Below the pieces are notes generated by a model. The model worked only from the letters and a program-made list of their open reading frames with translations. It was not told where the DNA came from and made no database searches. From an uncultured Chitinophagales bacterium (GTDB taxonomy: Bacteria; Bacteroidota; Bacteroidia; Chitinophagales; JAHDHT01): DNA of 39,486 nt. Where the stretch lies: positions 1 through 39,486 of the forward strand of contig CALHDG010000047.1 of assembly GCA_938023075.1 (NCBI GenBank), in the 5' to 3' direction. The position numbers and the translations under genes are program-made. Shown here in pieces: positions 12,498-37,567 of the stretch (positions are counted from its first letter, which is position 1; each line of letters begins with the position of its first letter).

Positions 12498-12603
12498 TTC
12501 AATCTTTTATAACACGCAAATCATTGCGAAATAAAATATTGTAGAACTTGTTCCGAGTATTACGGTAATTTTGGAAGCGAAACGAAAGGAGATATTTGCA
12601 AAC

Positions 12604-12687
12604 GGGCTGCCCGCCATCCGCTCAAATGCCGCAGCTTGGCTTCAAAAGCCTTGCTTCAGGCGGCATAACCACTGCTGTCGGGGCTAA
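12604..12687 (+). repeat. Variable-stem palindromic element, family B, copy 1
   Basis: The conserved left flank is GCCCGCCATCCGCTCAAAT and the conserved right flank is ATAACCACTGCTGTCGGGGC. Between them the arms ATGCCGC (12626-12632) and GCGGCAT (12660-12666) pair perfectly. The three other copies have the same flanks with different but still complementary arms. Confidence 0.85.
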
Positions 12688-19026: not shown

Positions 19027-19048
19027 CGAATTTTATAAGCTAGCCCTG

Positions 19049-19748
19049 ATTTCCAAGCCGACAGCACTAAAGCGCATTGGGTTGTTTAGCAGCTAAGTGT
19101 TGTTTACTGAATGGAAAAATTCGTCATTCAAAATTCGGTGTTCGATATTCGATATTCGATATTTTTTTGATGATTATTTAATGAATAACGAACATCGATT
19201 AACGAATAATGAATGTTGATTTATTTTTTATGTATAAATAAATAACATTCAATATACCGAAAGACACTTAGATTGAATTTCCAAGCCAACAGCACTAAAG
19301 CGCATTGGGTTGTTTAGCAGCTAGGTGTTGTTTACTGAATGGAAAAATTCGTCATTCAAAATTGGGTGTTTGGTGTTCGATATTCGATATTTTTCGGATG
19401 ACTATTTAATGAATAACGAATATCGATTAATGAATAATGAATGTTGAATTATTTTTAATGTATAAATAAATAACATTCAATATACCGAAAGACACTTAGA
19501 TTGAATTTCCAAGCCAACAGCACTAAAGTGCATTGGGTTGTTTAGCAGCTAAGTGTTGTTTACTGAATGGAAAAATTCGTCATTCAAAATTCGGTGTTCG
19601 ATATTCGATATTCGATATTCGATATTCGATATTTTTTTGATGATTATTTAATGAATAACGAACATCGATTAACGAATAATGAATGTTGATTTATTTTTTA
19701 TGTATAAATAAATAACATTCAATATGCCGAAAGACACCTAGACAGAAT
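19049..19748 (+). repeat. Three tandem copies of a 228-bp unit (family A)
   Basis: Copies begin at 19049, 19277 and 19505 with ATTTCCAAGCC.ACAGCACTAA, a period of 228 bp; the third is slightly longer. Each contains GAATGGAAAAATTCGTCATT, a run of the 7-mer TTCGATA whose number differs between copies, TTAATGAATAACGAA, and TATAAATAAATAACATTCAA. Single or partial copies occur at 4408, 24748, 30140 and 34941. No open frame spans the unit. Confidence 0.9.
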
Positions 19749-19818
19749 TGCAGCGGCTATACCATGATTTCGCGCGGATATTGCAGCCTAGCCATGGCAT
19801 TTGAGCGGAAAGCGGAAC
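19749..19818 (-). repeat. Variable-stem palindromic element, family B, copy 2
   Basis: It directly follows the third family A unit. Flanks are TTGCAGCGGCTAT and ATTTGAGCGGAAAGCGG. The arms ATACCATG (19759-19766) and CATGGCAT (19793-19800) pair with one A-C position on this strand, which is a G-U wobble on the reverse strand. Confidence 0.75.
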
Positions 19819-19891
19819 GAGTGTTTTTTCATTGCTTTCTGTATTGCTTCAAAAAAATATTTTCAAAAAAAAACGGTTCATAGGCTGTTGC

Positions 19892-19995
19892 AAAGATGTC
19901 ACCTTTTTAAAGATGATGCCTTTTCGAAAGATAACACCTTTTCGAAAGATGGTGTCTTTTCGAAAGATGACACCTTTTTTAAAGATGTCACCTTA
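19892..19995 (+). repeat. 18-bp minisatellite, six units
   Basis: Units of the form AAAGATnnnnnnCTTTTCG start at 19892, 19909, 19927, 19945, 19963 and 19981 (the first is 17 bp). The central hexamer varies: GTCACC, GATGCC, AACACC, GGTGTC, GACACC, GTCACC. GGTGTC in unit 4 is the exact reverse complement of GACACC in unit 5. A short remnant of family A (TTTAGTGTTG...AATTCGTCATTGG) follows. Confidence 0.85.
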
Positions 19996-24404: not shown

Positions 24405-24490
24405 CAGTTAAAAATTTCACATCTAATATAAGTAAATCGATCTTAAGTGATGAAATTTTTTGGCTAAAATTAGAATACTTAACAGCCGTC

Positions 24491-24526
24491 ATGCCAGAAA
24501 CTTGTGCTGGACTCGATCCAGTATCT
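24491..24526 (+). repeat. Short dispersed palindromic repeat (CTGGACTCGATCCAG)
   Basis: The perfect-arm core CTGGActcgaTCCAG is followed by TATCT. The same block, inverted and with one change, occurs at 5311-5344. Confidence 0.6.
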
Positions 24527-24607
24527 GAACTCGTAGAGCAGATTATCCGGCATCTCTACTATAAACACCCTGCTAAACCTTAAAATTTGGGGAAATCCAT
24601 AGAAGAG

Positions 24608-24649
24608 ATCGCCGGTAAATGTTCCGTTACTCTCCACATTTTCGGCGAT
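24608..24649. repeat. Isolated hairpin ATCGCCG/CGGCGAT
   Basis: Seven-bp perfect arms at 24608-24614 and 24643-24649 in an AT-rich gap. No T tract follows. The role is unknown. Confidence 0.35.
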
Positions 24650-24747
24650 GACGACGGTTGTTTTTGGGCTTCCAATAGTGTCTTTATATTGAAAATATCA
24701 AAAAAGTGTCAACTACTTTTATTATTTGGATGAACTTGTCACGAGTA

Positions 24748-24873: not shown

Positions 24874-24967
24874 TATTAGCCCCGATAGCAGCGGTTATAC
24901 CATTTTTGGCGAGGGCATTGCAGCGAAGGCAAAATGGTATTTGAGCGGATAGCGGGCTGCGCCTTTC
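24874..24967 (-). repeat. Variable-stem palindromic element, family B, copy 3
   Basis: Ten-bp perfect arms ATACCATTTT (24897-24906) and AAAATGGTAT (24931-24940) lie inside the family flanks ATTAGCCCCGATAGCAGCGG and TTGAGCGGATAGCGGGCTGC. On the reverse strand the flanks read as in copy 1 (12604) over some 35 positions with few changes, while the arms are unrelated to those of copy 1. Confidence 0.88.
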
Positions 24968-25010
24968 CATATAGCTTGGTTGGTTCGCTTCAAAAAAAAA
25001 TGTAAAATCA

Positions 25011-37020: not shown

Positions 37021-37290
37021 GAACGACTATGTAATACTTTTTTCTACAAATTTGGCTGAAAATAACATTAAATATTGATAATTTAATTTTGTAAAAAATT
37101 GATAATTATCTTTTTGTTAAGAAATTAAATGATGAAAAGTTTTTTAAAATTAAAAATTAAAGATTTAGAAACCATATAATTAATTGATTTTTGCTATCAA
37201 ATATTGACAAATTGTTCCAAACAATAAAGTTATTGACATCTTTGTACTGTTTTTTTTGAAGCGAAATTTTGTAACATTATAAAAACTTTG
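37021..37290. other. Gene-free AT-rich interval
   Basis: Very AT-rich, with no open frame, repeat family or clear hairpin recognised. Confidence 0.4.
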
Positions 37291-37371
37291 GGTCCCGCTT
37301 TCCGCTCAAATGCAATTGCTAGGCTTCAAAATCTGCGCGGCAAAATTGCATAACCGCTGCAATCGGGGCTA
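37291..37371 (+). repeat. Variable-stem palindromic element, family B, copy 4
   Basis: The flanks are CCCGCTTTCCGCTCAAAT and ATAACCGCTGCAATCGGGGC. The arms ATGCAATT (37310-37317) and AATTGCAT (37344-37351) pair perfectly and differ from those of the other three copies. Confidence 0.87.
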
Positions 37372-37567
37372 GTTTAAAAACTTCGGTTCTTCGTAGAAAA
37401 ACAAATAAAACACCGGCACTCTAAAACAAGAAAGTATTAACCACTTTCATAAACTTGTCCAAATGTTTGGCATTTTAATGAAATTTAAAAGATTACCACT
37501 GCTCAATACAGCGGTAATCTTTAAACAAAAACTATTTTATCTAAAAATATACATTAGTAATGCGGAG

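Follow-up and report, generated by a model that had tools for sequence, protein, structure and literature searches.

Four Hairpin Copies in an Intergenic Setting

The window, by which we mean the whole 39,486-nucleotide stretch of a contig from an uncultured Chitinophagales bacterium, contains four copies of a dispersed inverted-repeat element, designated A to D (Table 1). All four were present on re-inspection at the places given in the original prediction, with the arm sequences described there, and each is intergenic, lying between ORFs of real size. The copies were scored with a subfamily covariance model derived from 35 copies of the source genome, in which A, C, and D were included and B was left out. 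The outer flanks said to be common to the four copies are shared in general, but copy B lacks the left part because an insertion splits its core. The single imperfect position of copy B was confirmed; it is an A·C on the strand that carries the G·A mismatches and a G·T on the other strand.

Two further repeats were observed in the window. Just left of copy C, at approximately 24460-24744, another MITE type is represented by its right end and interior (interior ...GTCATGCCAGAAA..., end GATGAACTTGTC); full units that are related to it and carry 8-bp duplications occur at L097 6695-6988 and L113 2792-3083. An end of the same MITE type (GACAAGTTTATCTAA...) lies at L111 744 (- strand) beside an apparent P-loop NTPase coding sequence. 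Positions 19894-19977 hold short repeated AAAGATG.CACCTTTT units, with a chance-level Rfam match to mir-722.

Table 1. Positions of the hairpin copies and associated features in the window
Feature	Position	Strand	Evidence
Core hairpin of copy A (TAGCCCCGACAGCAGTGG...AGCGGATGGCGGG), stem ATGCCGC/GCGGCAT	12610-12686	-	subfamily model 90.4 bits; Flavo-1 24.5 bits
3′ box of copy A (GTTTCGCTTC), GCT able to pair with AGC of TAGCCCC	12574-12583	-	covariation, co-change on tree
Left half of split core of copy B (TAGCCCTGATT)	19041-19051	+	
Three tandem site-specific inserts, each TCCAAGCC...GAATT, splitting core B at GATT^GCAGCGG	19052-19749	+	
Insert units within core B	19052-19279, 19280-19507, 19508-19749	+	
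Right half of split core of copy B, stem ATACCATG/CATGGCAT, one A·C	19750-19816	+	subfamily model 53.7 bits (match at 19739-19815)
3′ box of copy B (GTATTGCTTC)	19841-19850	+	
Core hairpin of copy C, stem ATACCATTTT/AAAATGGTAT	24877-24956	+	subfamily model 84.2 bits; Flavo-1 36.6 bits, E 2.5e-4
3′ box of copy C (GGTTCGCTTC)	24982-24991	+	
Core hairpin of copy D, stem ATGCAATT/AATTGCAT	37294-37371	-	subfamily model 92.6 bits; Flavo-1 38.9 bits, E 5.5e-5
254-bp MITE unit around core D, outer inverted repeats GACAAGTTTATG.../...GACAAATTGTTCC	37206-37459	-	
Target duplication of copy D unit, first copy (CAAATATT)	37198-37205	+	
Target duplication of copy D unit, second copy (CAAATGTT)	37460-37467	+	7/8 identical

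Compensatory Changes in the Hairpin

The consensus, TA-GCCCCGATTGCAGCGG-TT-ATGC...GCAT-TTG-AGCGGAAAGCGGG, forms an imperfect hairpin in which Watson-Crick steps alternate with invariant G·A/A·G mismatches and the apical stem and loop change fast. Across 35 copies of the source genome, 99.6% of the cells in 15 pairs are paired, and changes on both sides are seen at 10 of these pairs. An independent counter gave a covariation score of 0.468, vs 0.200 when shuffled and ≤0.132 when slid. The top covarying pairs among 120 aligned copies are those of the consensus fold, and on a tree of these copies built from the unpaired columns, paired columns co-change on 119 branches over the 15 pairs (mean 7.9 per pair), as compared with a mean of 0.83 co-changing branches for wrong-partner column pairs. 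Pair counts, the tree, and the shuffled control agree that the covariation proposed for the arms is real, stronger than claimed, and beyond both chance and shared ancestry; a folded form therefore is, or was, selected. Arms pairing no better than shuffled sequence and one stem decaying at random, which had been named beforehand as outcomes that would speak against covariation, were looked for and neither was seen.

The outer parts, which had been taken for constant flanks, are themselves helices that covary around invariant G·A mismatches. Among 127 copies, the pair T8-A6 is TA in 103, AT in 21, and GC in 3, with zero exceptions, and C13-G1, G12-C2, and C4-G10 also vary in step, while the mismatches A6·G8, A11·G3, and G14·A0 never vary and G9·A5 is found in 126. 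The same mismatches are invariant in the source genome and in Flavobacteriia alike. The pairing extends beyond the core to a further pair that joins TAGC to the GCTTC following it some 30 nt downstream; this pair is GC in 115 copies and AT in 5, with four co-changes and no single change. Of 133 Flavobacteriia copies, 121 have a GCT(T/C/A)C box 4-5 or 29-35 nt past the right motif. The hairpin is maintained by compensatory changes, and the downstream GCTTC box belongs to it.

Covariation of this kind might instead be a by-product of quasi-palindrome correction by template switching, with no selected function. Such a process would account for the observation that the two arms change with hardly any intermediates, and for apical parts that differ between species where the flanks are ~95% identical, both versions being able to pair (e.g., L212/L213). 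It would, however, have erased the interspersed G·A mismatches and the T·T columns, which are kept in 126-127 of the 127 copies; moreover, the outer pairs covary between mismatches, as does a pair 107 columns apart (46-153). We consider correction an unlikely source of the pattern.

Membership in the Flavo-1 Family

At gathering thresholds, Rfam returns no match in the window. When matches are listed by E-value, copies A, C, and D are assigned to RF01705 (Flavo-1) with scores that all fall below its 42-bit cut-off (Table 1), and copy B is not listed. In the source genome, Flavo-1 matches 143 of 150 scored candidates, 72 of them above the cut-off and with up to 65.9 bits, and the subfamily model in turn recovers, at E<1e-5, 46 of 50 Flavo-1 loci from Flavobacterium, Chryseobacterium, and relatives. 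Motifs, helices, and mismatches are common to the two, with the same columns conserved. Judged by sequence and predicted fold, this cross-detection means that the window copies are a divergent subfamily of Flavo-1; the suggestion of an undescribed element type fails, since the family is already catalogued.

Aligned Flavobacteriia loci, which were fetched because they bear the element, hold it at matching positions, with apical stems that have been exchanged and yet pair. Candidate empty sites among the Flavobacterium loci proved to be orthologous copies and were rejected. Canonical Flavo-1 copies (TATCCTTTTTGTGGA...AACAAAAAGATTT) were also seen clustered within about 4 kb at L058 11582-15867 (contig C102).

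High Copy Number and Carriage by a MITE

The 16-mer left motif GCCCCGATNGNAGCGG has 370 matches at ≤1 mismatch in the 6.12 Mb source genome (288 contigs; 189 forward and 181 reverse), vs 1 match for the reversed pattern. In a sample of 1.29 Mb, made up of 81 stretches that include the window and were partly picked for element density, paired left and right motifs occur 143 times, vs 0 in the reversed sequence. A chance origin of the matches is excluded. The next-richest of 247 genomes of the class holds 39 copies, vs at least 370 here, which makes the source genome an outlier in copy number. An exact-pattern scan of viral contigs gave no match, nor did a blastn search of plasmids and phages with a single canonical copy, which is weak evidence with a short, diverged query. 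The literature on Bacteroidetes repeats yielded nothing specific that resembles the hairpin.

A recognizable outer inverted repeat (GACAAGTTTATC...) is present in 44 of the 127 copies in the sample, at both ends in 31, delimiting units of ~250 bp (mostly 246-255 bp); seven of these 31 are bounded by perfect 8-bp target duplications and three more by duplications matching at 7/8 positions. Copy D, with a 7/8 duplication, and similar copies thus combine the terminal inverted repeats and target duplication of a MITE. The left-end pattern of the MITE has 116 matches in the genome and zero control hits. Because units with the same ends enclose different interiors (L097, L113, and L050), the hairpin is cargo, and part of the copies in the source genome have spread as cargo of this MITE. 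The 83 sampled copies outside the MITE show no target duplication above the shuffled level, so mobility of their own is not supported. The proposed use of the copies in movement is supported for part of them. No autonomous element sharing the MITE ends was found in the 1.29 Mb sample of the 6.12 Mb genome.

A Fixed Insertion Point and the Question of a RAYT Partner

Three units in tandem, 228, 228, and 242 bp long, separate the halves of core B, and the same insert splits several other cores at exactly the same point, GATT^GCAGCGG; the hairpin serves a second small element as a fixed site of insertion. The insert in copy B is a tandem ~230-bp AT-rich unit that contains TTCGATATTCGATATT and AATAACGAATATCGATTAACGAATAATGAATGTTG and has no obvious inverted repeats. 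At L068/L031 other sequence takes over after a split left half, and an IS110-family gene (PF02371, PF01548) lies downstream, L068 being seen at the left junction only. IS110 and other families are known to target REPs (PMC1525189), and the fixed-point insertions therefore mean that the hairpin acts as a target in the manner of a REP. The insertions at one exact point, the IS110-family gene, and the precedent of REPs as IS targets would also suit a recombination target, attC-like or of IS110 type, that is maintained as a landing site. Most copies are unsplit, however, no cassette arrays were seen, and a hotspot need not explain conservation; we regard a maintained landing site as highly improbable.

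The original prediction suggested a link to a RAYT/Y1 transposase, for which we tested and which was not found. The element is structured, intergenic, and present in high copy, as would be expected of REP/REPIN sequences moved by a RAYT (TnpA-REP, Y1) transposase, and Y1 genes exist in the source genome. A survey of HuH enzymes notes atypical structures on the flanks of TnpA subclass 2.6 in Bacteroidetes, and this subclass is said to be without the GTAG/GTGG foot too (PMC6006769). However, no element lies within about 1.5 kb of the nine Y1_Tnp matches of the source genome, three elements in total lie near the Y1 loci of 16 Flavo-1-bearing Flavobacteriia genomes, and the element-rich genomes G061 and G068, with 41 and 59 left-motif matches, have no Y1_Tnp match. 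The GTAG/GTGG foot is absent from the window family, whose foot is TAGCCCC. Movement by a RAYT, perhaps of subclass 2.6, is thus very unlikely, and linkage to RAYT/IS200 was rejected. An IS200-like gene was noted at L032 927-2408; it has a YILNQPEHH motif, which resembles TnpA subclass 1.2, and is flanked on each side by an array of a short tandem repeat with several open frames.

RNA or DNA Hairpin

Rfam files Flavo-1 under the type "Gene; sRNA", Weinberg et al. 2010 described the motif as "probably" RNA and not cis-regulatory (PMC2864571), and Flavo-1 matches in F. psychrophilum overlap a number of 5′ transcribed regions (PMC9723704), all of which would fit a transcribed structured RNA, whether a trans-acting sRNA or a cis element. 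In that same transcriptome, however, Flavo-1 matches lie indistinctly sense or antisense, and many are outside transcribed regions (PMC9723704). The presence of hundreds of copies in a single genome also speaks against an RNA, as does the near absence of G·U pairs. We count 11 G·T and 5 A·C among 1905 pair cells in the source genome and 7 G·T and 13 A·C over eight outer pairs in Flavobacteriia, whereas the 208 pair cells of tRNAs from the same loci, a small control of 9 genes, include 22 G·U and 0 A·C; the element finder favors paired stems, which bears on this comparison.

Gene configurations, from ORF-based and therefore crude gene calls, are -- 40, +- 35, -+ 19, and ++ 13 in the source genome and -- 46, -+ 24, ++ 24, and +- 20 in Flavobacteriia. 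Antisense copies outnumber sense copies at tandem genes in both sets (40 vs 13, p 0.0003; 46 vs 24, p 0.012), an orientation that does not suit a leader or 3′UTR RNA. We judge a transcribed RNA to be rather unlikely. In predicted DNA folding, the TAGCCCC strand is more stable than its complement in 3/3 intact window copies (-13.8/-8.3, -11.9/-10.2, and -19.3/-15.3 kcal/mol), while predicted RNA folding gives a mixed order of the two strands. The low G·U, the orientation, the predicted strand folding, and the F. psychrophilum transcriptome favor DNA over RNA, short of proof; the low G·U may stem from hairpin-arm correction instead of DNA folding.

Interpretation and Comparison with Known Systems

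On balance we lean toward the view that the copies belong to a dispersed structured repeat of Bacteroidota, Rfam Flavo-1, that is partly spread by a MITE and whose selected form is a DNA hairpin. As to the function of the hairpin family, we infer that the TAGCCCC strand would form this selected hairpin, rather than an RNA, and that a putative protein or recombination machinery would recognize it; no partner protein was found. A bolder proposal, which we offer only tentatively, is that Flavo-1 might be a widespread Bacteroidota DNA-hairpin repeat with its own non-RAYT recognition protein, which underwent explosive amplification here after capture by a MITE. Flavo-1 has been a candidate RNA without a function since 2010, and the way it pairs, its orientation to genes, and its carriage by a transposon suggest that it deserves testing as a DNA structure, which the hundreds of copies in the source genome make practical. 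The near-total absence of G·U pairs could also help to tell whether the motifs of other orphan Rfam families are ssDNA or RNA.

The family resembles REP/REPIN sequences with RAYT in consisting of short imperfect palindromes that are intergenic, number in the hundreds, and serve as targets of insertion elements, and differs from them in lacking both the GTAG/GTGG foot and a linked RAYT. With bacterial MITEs it shares units of ~250 bp that are non-coding and have terminal inverted repeats and 8-bp target duplications; unlike them, only about a third of the copies lie inside such a unit, and the hairpin also occurs outside, both here and in Flavobacteriia. The closest relative is the Flavo-1 RNA of Weinberg et al. 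(PMC2864571), with which the window subfamily has the left motif TAGCCCCGATNGNAGCGG, the right motif AGCGGANAGCGGG, the helices, and the mismatches in common, and detection between the Rfam and subfamily models works both ways. The stem base of the window subfamily is TTAT.../...ATTTG, whereas that of Flavo-1 is NATCCTTTT/AAAAGATA; the inner part, mostly 44-49 nt, has other sequence, the window copies score under the 42-bit cut-off, and the 3′ GCTTC box is absent from the Rfam model. MITE carriage and copy number likewise set the subfamily apart. What is new here is the subfamily itself, its carriage by a MITE, its copy number, the 3′ box, and the DNA-like pairing.
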